DNA from: Enteroscipio rubneri
GTDB lineage: Bacteria > Actinomycetota > Coriobacteriia > Coriobacteriales > Eggerthellaceae
Length of the DNA: 64,000 nt
Direction: 5' to 3'
NCBI RefSeq assembly: GCF_002899715.1
Contig: NZ_PPEK01000003.1
Location: forward strand, 62,001-126,000
Positions within the stretch are counted from its first letter, which is position 1. The number at the start of each line of letters is the position of its first letter. Of this stretch, positions 4,056 through 15,824 are shown piece after piece. A model generated the notes under the pieces. That model worked only from the letters and a program-made list of their open reading frames with translations. It had not been told where the DNA came from and did not search any database. A program made the position numbers and the translations under genes.

Positions 4056-4889
4056 ATGGCTGCAAAGGGAGGGCGTGTCGCGTTGGTTGCGGCACTTGCG
4101 CTCGTATGCGCGCTTGCAGGACTGGTCGGATGTGCTAGTGCATCGGACGGGAATCTTGTCGCAGCAGGCGAGCGCACACTGCGCGTGGGCGTGCGCAGCG
4201 ACGTGGTGGGCTTCGGGTACCTCAATGAGACCACGGGGAAGTATTACGGCCTCGAGATCGATATTGCCGAGGAAATGGCCTCGCGTTTGGGCTTCTCCGA
4301 CGTCGAGTTTGCGACCGTGTTGCCGGAGACACGCAAGGACATGCTCATGAACGGCGAGATCGACTGTCTCGTGGCGTGCTACTCCATAGCCGAGTCTCGT
4401 CAGAAGAACTTCGACTTCTCGGCGGCGTATTACGCTGACAACTCCGTCATCGTGGTGGAAAACAGCTCGCTCGTCGACGACGTCGAGGATCTCAAAGGTC
4501 TCACGTTCGGCACCATGGCGGGATCGAACACCGCGCCTCAACTCGTGATCAAGCTCACTGAGTCCGGATTCACCTCCGGCGAGGCCCTTTCGGCAAGCGA
4601 AGATAATTCGGACGTCCAGTTCGACACGTTCCATCTTGTGCAGATGGCGTCCTATCAAGAGCTCGCCCAGGCGCTCGAAGAGGGCAGAATCGATGCCGCC
4701 TGCATGGACGGCAGCATTGCCAAAACCTATATGAGCAGCGACCGCAGCATCCTCGACTTTACGATCGATACGCAAAAGTATGGTGTCGCCACACAAAAGG
4801 ATTCCGCGCTCAGCCAGCCGGTGGCCGAGGCTGTGCAGGGAATGCTCGACGACGGCACCATCGCTCGGCTTACGGACAAATGGAATTGA
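4056..4889 (+). CDS. family 3 extracellular solute-binding lipoprotein
   Basis: This 277-residue protein has a lipoprotein signal peptide with lipobox LVGC (Cys26) followed by a family 3 periplasmic-binding fold (RTLRVGVRSDVVGFGY, YGLEIDIAEEMASRLG, LKGLTFGTMAGSNTAP, AVQGMLDDGTIARLTDKWN). Family members bind polar amino acids or small organic acids outside the membrane. AGGAAGGAAC precedes the chosen ATG at 4056. No ABC permease or ATPase follows. Instead the stop is only 14 bases from the start of a giant Cache-MscS channel, with that gene's ribosome site in the gap. This suggests the binding protein works as a ligand sensor for the channel, or serves an unlinked transporter; the pairing is inference. 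Confidence 0.88.
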   Translation: MAAKGGRVALVAALALVCALAGLVGCASASDGNLVAAGERTLRVGVRSDVVGFGYLNETTGKYYGLEIDIAEEMASRLGFSDVEFATVLPETRKDMLMNGEIDCLVACYSIAESRQKNFDFSAAYYADNSVIVVENSSLVDDVEDLKGLTFGTMAGSNTAPQLVIKLTESGFTSGEALSASEDNSDVQFDTFHLVQMASYQELAQALEEGRIDAACMDGSIAKTYMSSDRSILDFTIDTQKYGVATQKDSALSQPVAEAVQGMLDDGTIARLTDKWN

Positions 4890-4903
4890 GGAGGCGAGCG
4901 AGC

Positions 4904-7900
4904 ATGTCTCGGAAACTCAAGGTCAAAATCATTTGCCTCATCGCGGTGGCGGCCATCAGCATGGCAGCTATGGGCATACTGCTATCCTCTATGCAGAACG
5001 AACTCTCGCTCGACGGTTACACGACCGAGATGAAGCAGGAGGCTGACGCGCTCGAAGGGCTGCTGAGCGTGGCCGATGAAGGCGTGGCGCAAAGCACCGT
5101 CACGTACGACGAGATCTACCAATCAAAAGCCGAGAGCGTTGCCTTCATGGCGAACAACGATGCCGGTTTCGAACCAACCGATGCGAAAATGGTCGAGTAT
5201 CAGGACCTCCTCGGCGTGGATAACGTTGTAGTGGTTTCCCGCGACGGCGCGATCCTCGCGAAGGCCCGCGACACGCTCGCCAATTTTTCGTTTTCGCGCT
5301 TCAATCAGCTGCGCACCGTTTTTGCCGATGGAGAGCCTTCTGAGGCGGTTGAGATCGAGCTTCCCGAACAGGATTGGCTCTTCCGGTATTACGCCGCGCG
5401 CATCGATGACGGCTCCATGGTTGTGATCGAACAGAATCCCGATGAGCTGCGCCAGCTCGTGGCGGACACGGGATCGATCGAGAGCGTGCTCAAAGACATC
5501 GCCATCGGCCAGCACGGCTACCTGTTCGCGGTGTCCGCGCAGGACTATGTGATCGCCTACCATCCGAATGCCGATCTCGTGGGCGCCGATGCCCTTGACG
5601 CCGGCATCGATGCGGTCGATTTGGAAGACGGGAATCTCGCTTGGATGAAGCTCGCCGGCGAGTCGTTGTACTGCGAGGTCAGCAAGATCGGCGACATGTA
5701 CTACGTGGCCGCCGTGCCCGAAAGCGACATGGCGACCACCCGCAATATCACGGTGGGCGTCATCCTGTTCATCTTCTTCGCGGTCATGTGCGTGGTCATC
5801 ATGTATGGCATCTTCGTCATGCGCGAGGACGAGCGCGAGGGGCGCAGCCCCGAGGATTACTGCACCATGGGGCCGCTGCGCTACAACAAGGCGATCGGGA
5901 GAAAGGCGGCGGTGCTCTCGCTTGTGGGCTTCATCGGCATCCTGGGCGTGTCGTTCTACATGCAGACGCTGTTCGCCCTGTCCTCGGAGTCGGTGGCCAA
6001 CAACGAGCGCGCTGCCGAAGCGGTGGAGACCATCCAACGCGCCGACGAGCGCATGACGGCTCTGCAAGATCAATACAGTGAGCGCTACCTGAGCAAGGCG
6101 CGCGTGGCCGGCTATATCCTCGATCACAATCCAGCGCTCGCGAACCGAGACGATCTGCAGAGGCTCGCCGACACGCTCATGATCCAATACCTGTTCACGT
6201 TTGACGGAAACGGCGTAATGACCGCCACCAACTCATCGTATGCAAACTTCACCATGAGCGAGGATCCCGAGAGTCAATCCTTCGAGTTCCGCAAGCTGCT
6301 GCAAGGCGCCGATTCGGTAGTGCAGGAAGCGCAGCCCGACGAGATATCCGGGCAGCTGCGGCAGTACATTGGCGTGCCACTTCACGCCGAGTCGGGCGAG
6401 GTGGACGGAGCCGTACAGATCGGCATTCGCCCGACGCGCTTGGAGAAGCTGCTCGAGACCGTTACGGTGGACAGCGTGCTCAACGGCGTGAAGGTGGGAG
6501 CCGACGGATTCGCCTTCGCCGTGAACAAGGAGGACGACACGTTCGTCTCCTTTCCTGATCAGCGACTCGTGGGCAAGAACGCGCTTGAGCATGGCATGAC
6601 CGAGAATCAGTTCAAGGACGGATACTGCGACTACGTCACCGTCGAGGGCGTCACCTATTACGCCTCGTCAGCCGAGACGGACGACTACTATCTGTACATC
6701 GCCGGCACGGAAGGCGAGCTCATGGCCGAGCGCGTACCGCTCACCATGGCCACGGGCGGTGTCGCCTTCGTGTGCCTTGCGGCGATATTTCTCCTGTTGG
6801 CGTTCGAGCCGCGCCGCAGTGTGACCGTGGCGAAGGGGGTCGGCGCCGAGGAGCGCGACGCGCGCATGATCGACGTGAAGATGCCGAGCGGGCGCACTGC
6901 AAAAACCGAGAGCGCCGCCAGCCGCTGGCTTGATCGCTCGTTCAAATGGAGCGAGAAGACAGCCGAGCAGAAGACGGCAACGGTGGTGCGCTGGCTGGTG
7001 GGCGTGTCGGTGATCGCCGTATTTGCAGCCGTGGTGTTCCAAGATCGCATCTTCGGGCAGGGTTCTCTCTTCTCCTACATCCTGGGCGGAAACTGGGAGC
7101 GTGGACTGAACATTTTTGCGTTCACGGCGTGCATCATGTTCGTGTGCGTGGCCCTGACCGTGGTGACCATCGTGCACAAGCTGCTGAACCTGCTGTCCTC
7201 CGTGCTGGGCGCGCGCGGCGAGACGGTATGCAGGCTCCTTGGTAGCTTCATCAAATACGCCACCATCATCGGCATGGTGTACTACTGCCTCATGCTCGTA
7301 GGCGTGGACACCACCACGCTTCTGGCTTCGGCCGGCATCCTGTCCATCGCCATCAGCTTCGGCGCCAAGGAACTCGTATCCGATATCCTGAGCGGGCTTT
7401 TCATCATCTTCGAGGGCGAGTTCCGCGTGGGCGACATCATCAAGGTGGGCGACTGGCGCGGCACCGTGGTGGAGATAGGCGTGCGCACCACGAAGGTGCA
7501 GGATGGATCGCAGAACATCAAGGTCATCCGCAACAGCGACATCAGCAATGTGATCAACATGACGAAGGAGACGTCCTATGCCTCGTGCGACGTCGGCATC
7601 GAGTACGGCGAGTCGCTCGAACGCGTGGAGAACATCCTTTCCAAGGAGCTGCCGAACATACGCAAACGCCTGCCCGCCATCATTGACGGCCCGTTCTACA
7701 AAGGCGTCGTGGAGCTGGGCGACAACAGCGTAACTATTCGCATCGTGGTGCAGTGCGCCGAACCCGATCGCTTGCAGCTTGAGCGCGATCTGAATCGCGA
7801 GATGAAGCTGATCTTCGACAAATACGACATCAGTATTCCGTTTCCGCAGGTGGTCGTCAATCAACCTGTGGAGTTCAAGAAAGCGACGGCGAGGGAAAAG

Positions 7901-7981
7901 CGCAGCGCCGACCGGTTCAACGCGGAGCAGAAAGCCGCGGCGAAGGAGCTGGGCAACGATGAGGACGACGAGACGCGGTAG
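4904..7981 (+). CDS. double-Cache sensor fused to an MscS-type mechanosensitive channel
   Basis: This 1025-residue membrane protein starts with a transmembrane helix (about 4-30), an extracytoplasmic Cache-like region (about 31-280), helices near 283-305 and 335-360, and a second extracytoplasmic Cache-like region (about 361-610). Helices near 611-634, 695-714, 736-764 and 782-801 follow, then a canonical MscS pore and beta domain (LLASAGILSIAISFGAKELV at about 806, FRVGDIIKVGDWRGTVVEIGVRTTKV). The C-terminal tail is charged. MscS channels open under membrane tension; Cache domains bind small ligands in chemoreceptors and kinases. Having both suggests a ligand-modulated channel. GAGGAGG precedes ATG 4904. 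The upstream binding-protein gene is 14 bases away, so the two are almost certainly co-transcribed. Confidence 0.87.
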   Translation: MSRKLKVKIICLIAVAAISMAAMGILLSSMQNELSLDGYTTEMKQEADALEGLLSVADEGVAQSTVTYDEIYQSKAESVAFMANNDAGFEPTDAKMVEYQDLLGVDNVVVVSRDGAILAKARDTLANFSFSRFNQLRTVFADGEPSEAVEIELPEQDWLFRYYAARIDDGSMVVIEQNPDELRQLVADTGSIESVLKDIAIGQHGYLFAVSAQDYVIAYHPNADLVGADALDAGIDAVDLEDGNLAWMKLAGESLYCEVSKIGDMYYVAAVPESDMATTRNITVGVILFIFFAVMCVVIMYGIFVMREDEREGRSPEDYCTMGPLRYNKAIGRKAAVLSLVGFIGILGVSFYMQTLFALSSESVANNERAAEAVETIQRADERMTALQDQYSERYLSKARVAGYILDHNPALANRDDLQRLADTLMIQYLFTFDGNGVMTATNSSYANFTMSEDPESQSFEFRKLLQGADSVVQEAQPDEISGQLRQYIGVPLHAESGEVDGAVQIGIRPTRLEKLLETVTVDSVLNGVKVGADGFAFAVNKEDDTFVSFPDQRLVGKNALEHGMTENQFKDGYCDYVTVEGVTYYASSAETDDYYLYIAGTEGELMAERVPLTMATGGVAFVCLAAIFLLLAFEPRRSVTVAKGVGAEERDARMIDVKMPSGRTAKTESAASRWLDRSFKWSEKTAEQKTATVVRWLVGVSVIAVFAAVVFQDRIFGQGSLFSYILGGNWERGLNIFAFTACIMFVCVALTVVTIVHKLLNLLSSVLGARGETVCRLLGSFIKYATIIGMVYYCLMLVGVDTTTLLASAGILSIAISFGAKELVSDILSGLFIIFEGEFRVGDIIKVGDWRGTVVEIGVRTTKVQDGSQNIKVIRNSDISNVINMTKETSYASCDVGIEYGESLERVENILSKELPNIRKRLPAIIDGPFYKGVVELGDNSVTIRIVVQCAEPDRLQLERDLNREMKLIFDKYDISIPFPQVVVNQPVEFKKATAREKRSADRFNAEQKAAAKELGNDEDDETR

Positions 7982-8329: not shown

Positions 8330-10117
8330 ATGGCACGATCCGCTGCTCCGTCGACGACGCGACGCACGCTGCACTACTTCTGGCTGGTCACCCGCAAACA
8401 CCTCGGGCTGTTCGCCACGCTCATGACTGCGACGCTTCTGTTCGTGGCGCTGCTGTCGTACGGCAACCCCTACGTCATGAGCCTCGTGGTGGACCGCGTG
8501 AGCGCGGGCTCGGTGGCGCCCGACGAGGTGTTCGCGGTGTTCGGCCCTTATATCGTCGCGCTCATCCTCATCAACGTGGCTGGCCAGGCGGCCAGCAAGG
8601 TGCAGGACTACGCGATGTACCGGCTGCAGATCGCCGCCTCCTACGACCTGGCCACCATGTCGTTCGACGCGCTGTCCAACCAGTCGATGTCGTTCCACTC
8701 CAACCGCTTCGGCGGCACGCTCGTGAGCCAGACGACCAAGTTCATGAGCGCCTACCAGCTGCTGCTGGAAACCATCACGTTCCCGTTTCTGCCGGTCATC
8801 TGCTCGGTGGTGTTTACGTGCGCCATCCTCGCGCCGCGCGTGCCGGTGTACGTGGCCATCCTCATGGCGCTGCTCGCGGTGTACGCGGGCGTGTCCTACT
8901 ACATGTACAAGCGCATCCTGCACCTCAACGAGCAGGCGGCCAGCGCGCAGAACCAGCTGTCGGGCGAGCTGTCCGACTCGGTTGCCAACATCCTGGCGGT
9001 GAAGACCTACGGGCGCGAGGACTACGAGCGGGGGCTGTTCGATCAGGCGAACCGCGAGGTGGTGGCGCGCGACTCGAAGCGCATGTGGGCATCGCTCACG
9101 CGCGGCATCGTGACGGCGTGCATCACCATCGCCATCATGAGCGTGGTGGCCGTGTTCATCGCGGGCGGGAACGCCTGGTACGGCATCACGCCGGGCACGC
9201 TCGTGGTGATGTTCACGTACACCTACACGGTGACGAACCAGTTCAACTTCATCAACAACGGCCTGCAGCGCTTCAACCGCGCCTTCGGGGACGCGAGCGG
9301 CATGACCGTGATCCTCGACGAGCCGCGACTGGTGGCCGACAAGCCGGGCGCGCCCGAGCTCGAGGTGCGCGAGGGCGCCATCGACTTCGAGGACATCGGC
9401 TTCTGGTACACCGACGGCGAGGCGCGCACGCGGGTGTTCGACGACCTCGACCTGCACATCCCCGCCGGCCAGCGCGTGGGCCTCGTGGGATCGAGCGGGG
9501 CGGGGAAGACCACGCTCACGAAGCTGCTGCTGCGCCTGTCCGACATCCAGGAGGGGCGCATCCTCGTGGACGGGCAGGACATCTCCGAGGCCACCCAGCA
9601 ATCGCTGCGCCGCCAGATCGCTTACGTGCCGCAGGAGGCGCTCCTGTTCCACCGGAGCATCGCGGAGAACATCGCCTACGGGAGGCCCGACGCCACGATG
9701 GAGCAGATCCGCGAGGCGGCGCGCCAGGCGAACGCGCTCGAGTTCATCGAGCGGCTGCCGCAGGGCTTCGACACCGTCACGGGCGAGCGCGGCGTGAAGC
9801 TGTCGGGCGGCCAGCGCCAGCGCATCGCCATCGCGCGGGCGCTTCTGGCCGACTGCCCGTTGCTCGTGCTGGACGAGGCCACGAGCGCGCTCGACTCCGA
9901 GAGCGAGCAACTGGTGCAGGACGCGCTGGCCACGCTCATGCGCGGGCGCACGGCCATCGTGGTGGCGCACCGCCTGTCGACGGTGGCCAGCCTCGACCGC
10001 ATCGTGGTGCTCGACGGCGGCCGCGTGGTGGAGGACGGCCCGCACGCCGAGCTCATCGAGGCCGGCGGGGCCTACGCGAACCTGTGGAGCAGGCAGACCG
10101 GGGCGTATCTGGAGTAG
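8330..10117 (+). CDS. ABC transporter, fused permease and ATPase (exporter half-transporter)
   Basis: This is a 595-residue type IV ABC half-transporter. The N-terminal six-helix membrane domain spans about 25-310, followed by a nucleotide-binding domain with Walker A GSSGAGKTT (about 387), Q-loop YVPQEALLF, signature LSGGQRQR (about 490), Walker B LLVLDEATSALD and switch His in VVAHRLSTVA. Such proteins dimerise to export lipids, peptides or drugs; nothing here fixes the substrate. GAAAGGCTCCCTC precedes ATG 8330. It stands alone: the next gene is on the opposite strand and overlaps its last 65 bases tail to tail. Confidence 0.9.
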   Translation: MARSAAPSTTRRTLHYFWLVTRKHLGLFATLMTATLLFVALLSYGNPYVMSLVVDRVSAGSVAPDEVFAVFGPYIVALILINVAGQAASKVQDYAMYRLQIAASYDLATMSFDALSNQSMSFHSNRFGGTLVSQTTKFMSAYQLLLETITFPFLPVICSVVFTCAILAPRVPVYVAILMALLAVYAGVSYYMYKRILHLNEQAASAQNQLSGELSDSVANILAVKTYGREDYERGLFDQANREVVARDSKRMWASLTRGIVTACITIAIMSVVAVFIAGGNAWYGITPGTLVVMFTYTYTVTNQFNFINNGLQRFNRAFGDASGMTVILDEPRLVADKPGAPELEVREGAIDFEDIGFWYTDGEARTRVFDDLDLHIPAGQRVGLVGSSGAGKTTLTKLLLRLSDIQEGRILVDGQDISEATQQSLRRQIAYVPQEALLFHRSIAENIAYGRPDATMEQIREAARQANALEFIERLPQGFDTVTGERGVKLSGGQRQRIAIARALLADCPLLVLDEATSALDSESEQLVQDALATLMRGRTAIVVAHRLSTVASLDRIVVLDGGRVVEDGPHAELIEAGGAYANLWSRQTGAYLE

Positions 10118-13494: not shown

Positions 13495-13938
13495 TTACTC
13501 GAGGTGATGGATGGGTCCCGCACCCTGTTCGGCACTTTGCCAGCCGTCGGGCAAGGGGATATCATGGCATTCGTTGCAGCTCAGCGTTGAGGTCGCGTCC
13601 ACCGAATGGCACGAGAGGCATTCTCCTGATTCGAGGTGAGCCTTGTGTGGGTTGACTCCCTCGATGCCGGCGAAATCCTCGTTTCCTTTATTGATGACGT
13701 CGCGAGGATGGCAGCTCAAGCAGAATTTGTTGCTGTAATCATCGGTTTTGTCAAGCTCTCCGTTGACATGCAATGCCATGAGCGAGCCCGTTGGGAACGA
13801 GTCGGGGGAGGCGGATGCTCCGCCCTTGTCGGAATCCGCCTGCTGGGGCGCGCATCCTGCGATTGTCGCAGCCAAGGCTGTTGTGGCCAGGGCGGTTAAA
13901 AGCAACATCAATAGTCTTTTGTTCTTCACGTCAAACAC
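13495..13938 (-). CDS. three-haem cytochrome c lipoprotein, electron donor of the flavoprotein reductase
   Basis: This 147-residue exported lipoprotein has a hydrophobic signal segment and lipobox IAGC (Cys29). Three CxxCH haem c sites follow: Cys73-His77, Cys107-His111 and Cys121-His125, with other His residues (57, 98, 101, 143, 144) available as axial ligands. It resembles the small cytochrome part of Shewanella flavocytochrome c, here encoded as a separate chain. The start is GTG 13938 with AGGAAGG upstream. It follows the Tat-exported flavoprotein gene by 24 bases, so the two form one operon and presumably one extracytoplasmic reductase that receives electrons from the quinol pool. Confidence 0.88.
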   Translation of the reverse strand: MFDVKNKRLLMLLLTALATTALAATIAGCAPQQADSDKGGASASPDSFPTGSLMALHVNGELDKTDDYSNKFCLSCHPRDVINKGNEDFAGIEGVNPHKAHLESGECLSCHSVDATSTLSCNECHDIPLPDGWQSAEQGAGPIHHLE

Positions 13939-13962
13939 CTTCGCCTTCCTCGGTCTCAGTCC

Positions 13963-15729
13963 CTAGATATTTGCGTGGATGTAATCCATGCCGAGGATGT
14001 CCTTGATGGCGAGCCAGGCGAAGCACTGGCCGTGGCCGATGCCGGAACCCATGACGTTCGGCGGATACACGTTGCCGTAGAAGGAGCCTGCGGTATTCCC
14101 TGCAACATAGAGGCCGGGAATGGGCTTGCCGTCCTTATCGAGCACGCGGCACCGCTCGTCGTTCTTGAGGCCACCGCGTGTCGAAGTCATCGACGAGCAA
14201 TGCTTCGAAGCGTAGAACGGCGGCGTGTCGATGGGGGTCATCCAGAGAGGATCCTTGTAGAAGTCCAGGTCTTCCCCGGCAGCGCATAGCTCGTTGTAGC
14301 GGTTGAACGAGGCCGTGAAAATGTCCTTGTCGAATCCGCAGTGCTCGATAAGCTCGTCGATGGTGTCGAACTTGAAGGTCACGCCCAACTCCACGTTCTT
14401 GTCCACTTCCTCCTGCGTGTTGGAGGCGGTGTAGTCCTCGACCATGTAGCCGCCTTCGGGGAACTTCTCTTTCCATGCGCTGTCCCAGATGCTCCATGCG
14501 CATCCATCGGAGGTGCAGGTGAGCTTCGGGATGGAGGGGGACTGGAACGGCAGGTTCTCGGCCATGAGACGGCGGCCTGCGCCGTCCACCATAAACACAG
14601 GGAGGTTCGCAACGCCAGCGTAGAAGTGCGTGCCGTCAAGCTTGGGCAGCGTGCCGTCCGTCATGACGGCGGCGAACGGCCACAGATCGCCGCAGGCGAA
14701 CTCATCCATATCGGCGCCTATCCACATGCCCATCTTCTGGCCGTCGCCGGTATCGTTCGTATTGATGTTGTAGCGGATGATCTTGCTCAGCGATACGTTG
14801 TAATGGGCCATCATTTCACGATCGCCGGACATGTCACCGGTGGTAAGCAGCACGCCCTTTGCGGCGTTGTACTTTACGTACTCCTCGGATTCGTTCTTGG
14901 CGATGACGCCTGTGCACCGACCGCTGTCGTCGCGGATCAGCTGCACGGCTGGCTGGCCGTAATGGAAAGTCGCGCCCTTCTCGGTCGCGTATTCTTCCAT
15001 GATGCCGGTCCAGTCGACGTCGCCGCCGGTGGCGAAGAACTTGCCTTCGGAATCAGCGAAGAAGATCATCTGGGCGAACGCTTGCCACAACGGGCTGGCT
15101 CCGGGCATGCCGATGCCGTCGTTCGTGATCTTGTAGTCCAGCGAGGCGGCCGGAATGAGCTGGTAGCCCTTGCTGTTGAAGATGCCTTCGAGCCAGTTGA
15201 CGTAGGGGCCGGAGTTGTCGAACCAGAGACCGTACGAGGACGTTCTACCTTGCACGCCGTTGCTGATGGCCCAGGTGGAGGTCACAAACTCCTTGCGATC
15301 GGTGGTCAATCCCAGCTTCGTCTGAACATCGGAATTGAAACCAGCAGTGCAGAGGCGCGCGACGCCGTACGAGCTGCCCTTTTCAAGTACGTGGACGTCT
15401 GCTCCGCTTTCTGCGGCCAGCATCGATGCGGGCAAGCCGCAAATGCCGGCGCCGCAGATGACGATGTCGCAGTCGATGGTTTCCGCTATCTCGTCGTCCG
15501 AGATGGGATTGGGCGGCGTGAGGAACGCGGGTTCTCCGGAGGCGCCGGCCTCGGCACCGGTTTCGGGCGTCTCGCTGCTCCCCTTGTCCTCCGCGGGCGC
15601 TCCGCTCGCGCAACCGCTCATAGTCCCTACCATCGCCGTGCCGACGCCGGCGAGGGCGGCACCTACGAGAAAGTCTCGACGGGATAGACCCTGGTGCTCG
15701 GATTCGATTGCGTCGAATTTGTTTTCCAT
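13963..15729 (-). CDS. Tat-exported FAD-dependent reductase (fumarate reductase/flavocytochrome c family)
   Basis: The 588-residue protein has a twin-arginine signal (SRRDFLVG at 16-23) ending at a possible lipobox Cys40, a low-complexity Glu/Gly linker, then the FAD-binding motif DIVICGAGICG at about 88-98. The C-terminal FAD motif GLYVAGNTAGSFYGNVYPPN is also present. It belongs to the family of fumarate, urocanate and cardiac-glycoside (Cgr2-type) reductases, which reduce an activated carbon-carbon double bond of an electron acceptor outside the cytoplasmic membrane. The substrate cannot be read from sequence. AAAGGGAG precedes ATG 15729. The downstream partner is a three-haem cytochrome; the divergent LuxR gene is the probable regulator. 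Confidence 0.9.
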   Translation of the reverse strand: MENKFDAIESEHQGLSRRDFLVGAALAGVGTAMVGTMSGCASGAPAEDKGSSETPETGAEAGASGEPAFLTPPNPISDDEIAETIDCDIVICGAGICGLPASMLAAESGADVHVLEKGSSYGVARLCTAGFNSDVQTKLGLTTDRKEFVTSTWAISNGVQGRTSSYGLWFDNSGPYVNWLEGIFNSKGYQLIPAASLDYKITNDGIGMPGASPLWQAFAQMIFFADSEGKFFATGGDVDWTGIMEEYATEKGATFHYGQPAVQLIRDDSGRCTGVIAKNESEEYVKYNAAKGVLLTTGDMSGDREMMAHYNVSLSKIIRYNINTNDTGDGQKMGMWIGADMDEFACGDLWPFAAVMTDGTLPKLDGTHFYAGVANLPVFMVDGAGRRLMAENLPFQSPSIPKLTCTSDGCAWSIWDSAWKEKFPEGGYMVEDYTASNTQEEVDKNVELGVTFKFDTIDELIEHCGFDKDIFTASFNRYNELCAAGEDLDFYKDPLWMTPIDTPPFYASKHCSSMTSTRGGLKNDERCRVLDKDGKPIPGLYVAGNTAGSFYGNVYPPNVMGSGIGHGQCFAWLAIKDILGMDYIHANI

Positions 15730-15824
15730 GATACTCCCTTTCCCCTTGCTTCCTTGTTCTGCTTCCTTGAGCCGACCGTCGATGGCAGCCGCCTTCGCCA
15801 AGCAATGCTAGGGCCTGATCCGGT

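Follow-up and report, generated by a model that had tools for sequence, protein, structure and literature searches.

Why should a bacterium keep the gene for a predicted amino-acid-binding lipoprotein beside that of a channel of the mechanosensitive MscS type, with no importer for it at hand? The question is raised by two genes of Enteroscipio rubneri in a 64,000-nucleotide stretch of contig NZ_PPEK01000003.1, which as a whole is called the window here. The upstream gene (4056..4889, plus strand) encodes a family 3 solute-binding protein (SBP) of 277 amino acids, a lipoprotein predicted to be of the aspartate/glutamate (Asp/Glu) type. After a spacer of 14 bases holding a GGAGG ribosome-binding site (4890..4903, plus strand), the second gene follows on the same strand (4904..7981). 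It encodes a tandem dCache-MscS channel of 1025 amino acids with eight predicted transmembrane (TM) helices, read from Pfam, hydropathy and modelling, and is the single full-length copy in the 2.83 Mb host genome. The answer put forward here, with about an even chance of being correct, is that the two proteins form a ligand-modulated channel in which the Asp/Glu-type SBP would dock on the dCache sensors and tune the gating of the MscS pore. Sequence and modelling support the parts with their folds, the tandem duplication, the kept pairing and a pocket of Asp/Glu type; ligand binding, docking, the direction of gating, what flows and an osmotic purpose are what we infer beyond them. A preliminary description of the locus had placed both genes and the gap between them correctly, and its reading of the channel as two Cache-like regions with a complete MscS was borne out by Pfam, hhalign and models alike.

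The pairing itself was followed across genomes. The named loci, which are the best 80 of 384 confirmed stretches with the lower end of the range left out, span 44-85% identity and come from two phyla, represented by the Coriobacteriia and gut Bacillota. The SBP gene adjoins the channel gene in 79 of these 80, the lone exception (L114) being a broken gene in a metagenome-assembled genome (MAG). In the host family, Eggerthellaceae, a channel match is present in 33 of 138 genomes, and every relative with at least 50% identity has the SBP immediately upstream; the spacer measures 7-19 bases across the family loci with both ends on the contig. Among 395 genomes of the host order, Coriobacteriales, the channel occurs in 66 and the SBP subfamily in 60, with both in 58, the channel only in eight, the SBP only in two and neither in 327 (Fisher p about 5e-58, uncorrected for shared ancestry). 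The preliminary description had staked its case on the same pair being kept in relatives, and it is kept, in those 79 loci and in the 58 genomes with both. Adjacency by chance was rejected because of this recurrence together with the co-occurrence in genomes, and the locus shows the conserved adjacency of an SBP and a membrane sensor that is expected of an SBP–receptor pair.

The genomes that hold one partner are few and varied. The eight with the channel only comprise a contig edge (G040), a broken copy (G245), an apparent loss (G094) and divergent channels (G119, G205, G261, G264 and G266), while the two with the SBP only are G321, with a decayed copy, and G382, where the SBP lies among open reading frames (ORFs) of the ATP-binding cassette (ABC) importer type. 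Broken or decayed channel or SBP copies were seen in genomes of the host order that are fairly complete in other respects (L161, L162, L163, L164 and L190), and such copies indicate that the pair is lost at times.

No third partner gene conserved throughout the loci was found, nor does an importer accompany the SBP: permease and ATPase genes for it are not adjacent in the window, and the locus lacks the make-up of one for an ABC importer. The host genome has eight family 3 SBP-domain matches and five amino-acid permease matches, and all five permease places adjoin other SBPs (contigs C2, C4, C7 and C14), so that a part in amino-acid import was disfavoured for this SBP. The kept pairing, the lack of any other neighbour conserved throughout and the attachment of the host permeases to other SBPs support a ligand-modulated channel, as do the pocket residues of the SBP and the dCache and MscS folds.

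What the SBP might bind can be judged from its pocket. The protein matches SBP_bac_3 (PF00497, E 2.5e-25) and carries a lipobox, LVGC, at residues 23-26 (Cys26; 4122..4133, plus strand). The closest natural SBP with a solved structure is PEB1a of Campylobacter (2v25, 2.5e-22), an Asp/Glu binder that serves an ABC importer and has the same pocket residues. Four of these, R93, R115, Y200 and D218, stand unchanged in all 78 SBP sequences; R47 is kept in 77 of the 78, and every sequence has Ser or Thr at the position of S110. In the mycobacterial GlnH, the amino-acid backbone is held by S164, R169 and D250, and the side-chain carboxylate of Asp or Glu by R147, W232 and T162 (PMC6069109). R93, R115, Y200 and D218 match the spacing of GlnH R147, R169, W232 and D250, the distances from R93 to S110 (17), S110 to R115 (5) and Y200 to D218 (18) being identical in the two proteins; the position of GlnH T162 is Cys, Thr or Ala in the SBP family. 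The residues that mark an Asp/Glu-type SBP are thus in place, R93 and Y200 for the side-chain carboxylate and S110 (as Ser or Thr), R115 and D218 for the backbone, and the pocket is predicted from sequence to be of that type, so that aspartate or glutamate would be the ligand. Between N158 and Y200, the family has an insertion with a median of 41 residues, as against 25 in PEB1a, which lacks most of it, and this insertion is a candidate interface.

The fold of the channel protein was assessed with AlphaFold (AF2) models followed by fold comparison (VIA-align); TM helices were taken from family-mean hydropathy and the AlphaFold model, and the membrane topology follows from the helices. They run in the order TM1, dCache-A, TM2, a short inner loop, TM3, dCache-B, TM4, an inner linker, TM5 and three MscS helices, all features being encoded on the plus strand. 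TM1 (residues 9-27; 4928..4984) is the start of a model helix spanning residues 3-84, and leads into the extracytoplasmic dCache-A (residues 28-282; 4985..5749), TM2 (residues 282-300; 5747..5803), TM3 (residues 335-353; 5906..5962), the extracytoplasmic dCache-B (residues 354-614; 5963..6745) and TM4 (residues 615-633; 6746..6802).

The dCache_1 family (PF02743) scores 50 bits in the channel, over a Pfam cut-off of 45, and the sensor part was modelled confidently, with a pLDDT of 82.4. dCache-B matches the dCache of Mlp24 (6iot_D) over model residues 353-609 with a Z of 12.2, and has the double Cache fold, the long N-terminal helix and the position between two TM helices that characterize dCache_1. 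dCache-A alone stays below the cut-off, with 17.6 bits, and its dCache fold is nevertheless supported by the model, which matches the Cache receptors 9a65_B (model residues 1-311, Z 13.6) and 8w7p_A (residues 35-277, Z 12.9), the root-mean-square deviation (RMSD) being near 9 for both. The two regions are homologous (hhalign 99.9%, E 1.5e-35, 24% identity, residues 2-281 against 328-611), and by this alignment the sensor consists of a TM-dCache-TM module duplicated in tandem. Each region is a full double Cache, giving four Cache subdomains in all; the Cache folds on which the preliminary description depended are present in both by model and fold comparison.

Past TM4, a conserved cytoplasmic segment (residues 655-690; 6866..6973), in which R674, W675 and W682 are invariant in 78 of 78 sequences, precedes TM5 and is a candidate coupling element. 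The MscS core (residues 737-987; 7112..7864) consists of three TM helices with beta and alpha-beta domains, and the three MS_channel domains PF21088, PF00924 and PF21082 all exceed the Pfam cut-off. Its nearest solved channel core is TtMscS (3udc; E 5.3e-38, 215 residues aligned), and the model of the MscS part matches 3udc_A with a Z of 12.3 and an RMSD of 10.5 over 249 residues. Membership of the MscS superfamily is indicated by the model, in which helices 737-767, 770-799 and 803-836 precede the beta domain, and by a pore helix and an upper vestibule that are homologous to those of E. coli MscS. In the pore helix, MscS TM3 (residues 803-836; 7310..7411), the phmmer alignment to E. coli MscS puts I815 and F819 at the L105/L109 pore-seal positions, and both columns are hydrophobic in 78 of 78 sequences.

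How might these parts work together? The lipid-anchored SBP would capture aspartate or glutamate outside the cell and, once loaded, would dock on the outward-facing dCache sensors. The change may then reach the MscS pore by way of the membrane helices and the conserved cytoplasmic segment; the opening or tension threshold of the pore would shift, and the open pore would pass ions and small osmolytes. MscS is a heptamer and dCache sensors are usually dimers, which led to the idea that the two dCache units of each chain may form an internal pseudo-dimer, since a dimeric sensor could then sit on a heptamer. Docking of loaded SBPs on the sensor domains of receptors is a described general mechanism (PMC9602780), and by likeness to such SBP-stimulated receptors the SBP here probably docks on the dCache region. 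A stronger form of the proposal, held as a tentative possibility, is that of a bacterial ionotropic receptor for acidic amino acids, with the Asp/Glu-loaded lipoprotein directly opening or closing a heptameric MscS pore through the tandem dCache pseudo-dimer.

Several observations weigh against a channel tuned by its lipoprotein. A lipobox-like sequence is found in 54 of 77 SBPs and is missing from 23 of the 77, so membrane anchoring is not universal; those without it (L110, L113, L115-L117, L120-L122, L124, L125, L127, L129-L132, L135, L137-L139 and L141-L144) look secreted, and retention by a partner would be needed. In the linker that leads from TM4 to the MscS part, residues 639-677 are modelled with low confidence, and a rigid mechanical link is hence not evident. 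At L159, inside the paired clade, the SBP has seemingly been lost, and around divergent tandem dCache-MscS sister channels of Coriobacteriia and Lachnospirales (L153, L154, L155, L156, L157, L158, L167-L170 and L181) the flanks examined hold no SBP gene, so that a sensor part of this kind can apparently function unaided. On the tree, the SBP label changes three times against a shuffled mean of 10.8, with the SBP-free rows on long branches and their placement unsure. In mirror-tree comparisons, SBP divergence tracks dCache-B (r 0.85) more than dCache-A (0.81) and MscS (0.75), which is a weak sign because shared descent alone predicts it. Single-dCache matches of about 630-670 residues in Lachnospirales looked like a related channel type, but the two read at full length, L171 and L172, are chemoreceptors by their sequence.

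The sister channels without an SBP also suit the rival that survives best, in which the channel is an ordinary osmotic valve gated by tension, its dCache regions sense something else directly and the SBP only recaptures leaked amino acids. The hydrophobic pore seal is kept, and genes for AqpZ-type aquaporins (NPARSFG/NPARSLG) adjoin the pair in 12 loci (L080, L084, L085, L088, L109, L111, L112, L118, L126, L132, L134 and L136), suggesting osmotic work. They do so in three arrangements, divergent in Atopobiaceae (four), upstream on the same strand in Bacillota (seven) and downstream in one Oscillospiraceae MAG, the loci within each being related, and they give a hint of an osmotic role for the pair. 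However, the SBP has no linked importer, the amino-acid permeases of the host standing beside other SBPs, and recapture would therefore lead nowhere. The valve is accordingly held to be unlikely.

The preliminary description had supposed that the Cache domains may be presented with the ligand of the SBP. On such a feeder arrangement, the ligand is passed to a dCache pocket that gates the channel, with no docking signal. Small molecules are the usual ligands of dCaches, and the nearly invariant F128, R132, N134, Y162, Y163 and D168 of dCache-A may keep an altered pocket. The canonical amino-acid motif of dCaches is YxxxRxWY...Y...D (PMC9901441), yet its contiguous RxWY, typical of dCache_1AA, is present in one of 81 channel sequences and missing in 80, a count that leaves degenerate forms outside, and no significant match emerged when the pockets were mapped by sequence profile onto dCaches of solved structure. 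The absence of the canonical motif favours a sensor that reads a protein over one that reads an amino acid directly. Feeding is thus rather doubtful, and presentation of the ligand is no likelier than docking by the loaded SBP.

The closest channel-less relative of the SBP that was found (L189:4709-8015, genome G382) lies, as read from the ORFs, in an ATPase-SBP-permease-permease cluster, which is likely the kind of source from which the paired SBP came. That the SBP still serves an ABC importer encoded elsewhere, its gene order reflecting co-regulation only, would agree with this outgroup and is very improbable given the near-perfect pairing with the channel and nothing else and the nearer SBP that each host permease has.

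Other neighbours of the pair are confined to subgroups and include LysR regulators (downstream, 9 of 67), aquaporins (upstream, 9 of 65) and ABC exporters. The earlier statement that no ABC transporter genes are present held for SBP-dependent importers, none of which adjoins the pair, and failed for the ORF directly 3' of the channel (8330-10117), whose sequence suggests an ABC exporter rather than an importer; related exporter genes also lie 3' of the pair in some Gordonibacter loci (L066 and L070). In one MAG, a pyridoxal-dependent decarboxylase, possibly of the glutamate decarboxylase type, adjoins the pair (L099:5518-6912). Farther along the window, on the minus strand (13495-15801), a small multihaem cytochrome-like ORF adjoins a flavoprotein reductase-like one, a pair of a type common in the host's bacterial family.

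In LuxP-LuxQ, a binding protein acts on the outside sensor of a receptor, with autoinducer-2 as ligand and a cytoplasmic enzyme as output. NspS-MbaA of Vibrio (PMC8079147, PMC8967002) works on the outside sensor likewise, but with polyamines and an enzyme output where Asp/Glu and a pore are predicted here. Mycobacterial GlnH-GlnX-PknG (PMC6069109) resembles the pair more closely, as an Asp/Glu-type family 3 lipoprotein with the same ligand-holding residues is encoded beside a membrane sensor and not an importer; GlnX, however, senses through four-helix bundles and passes its signal to a protein kinase, whereas the partner here has dCache sensors and an ion channel. TtMscS shares a related channel core and is without sensor domains or partner protein. 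The dCache_1 chemoreceptors Mlp24, PctA and McpB have the sensor fold in common with the channel, but their output is chemotaxis signalling and their canonical ligand motif is absent from it. Bacterial cyclic nucleotide-gated (bCNG) channels carry added cytoplasmic domains that bind cyclic nucleotides. They too combine the MscS pore and vestibule with additions that can include ligand-binding domains (PMC4560390), but have neither an extracytoplasmic sensor nor a partner SBP. The alpha2delta subunits of animal calcium channels also put two dCache_1 domains at the service of an ion channel, although as separate subunits of a voltage-gated channel with an unrelated pore and no SBP (PMC9901441).

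In a 2016 census of Cache domains, the ion-channel outputs were of the animal calcium-channel type only, and MscS went unmentioned (PMC4822843). No Cache-MscS or SBP-MscS system was found described in the open-access literature, and within that scope the preliminary remark that no characterised system has this design still stands. Each ingredient is already known, be it SBP–receptor pairs, dCache sensors or MscS channels fused to ligand domains, and it is for their combination that no description was found. Textbooks present the MscS channels of bacteria as pressure valves. A conserved SBP with a tandem dCache-MscS channel in many gut genera would show amino-acid sensing wired directly to membrane flux, and would offer a tractable system for learning how a mechanosensitive gate takes its setting from a chemical signal and for asking how a dimer-type sensor matches a seven-fold pore. 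If the ionotropic reading is true, the pair would be a functional counterpart of the glutamate-gated channels of animals, one that is widespread among gut bacteria and whose channel parts are unrelated to theirs.

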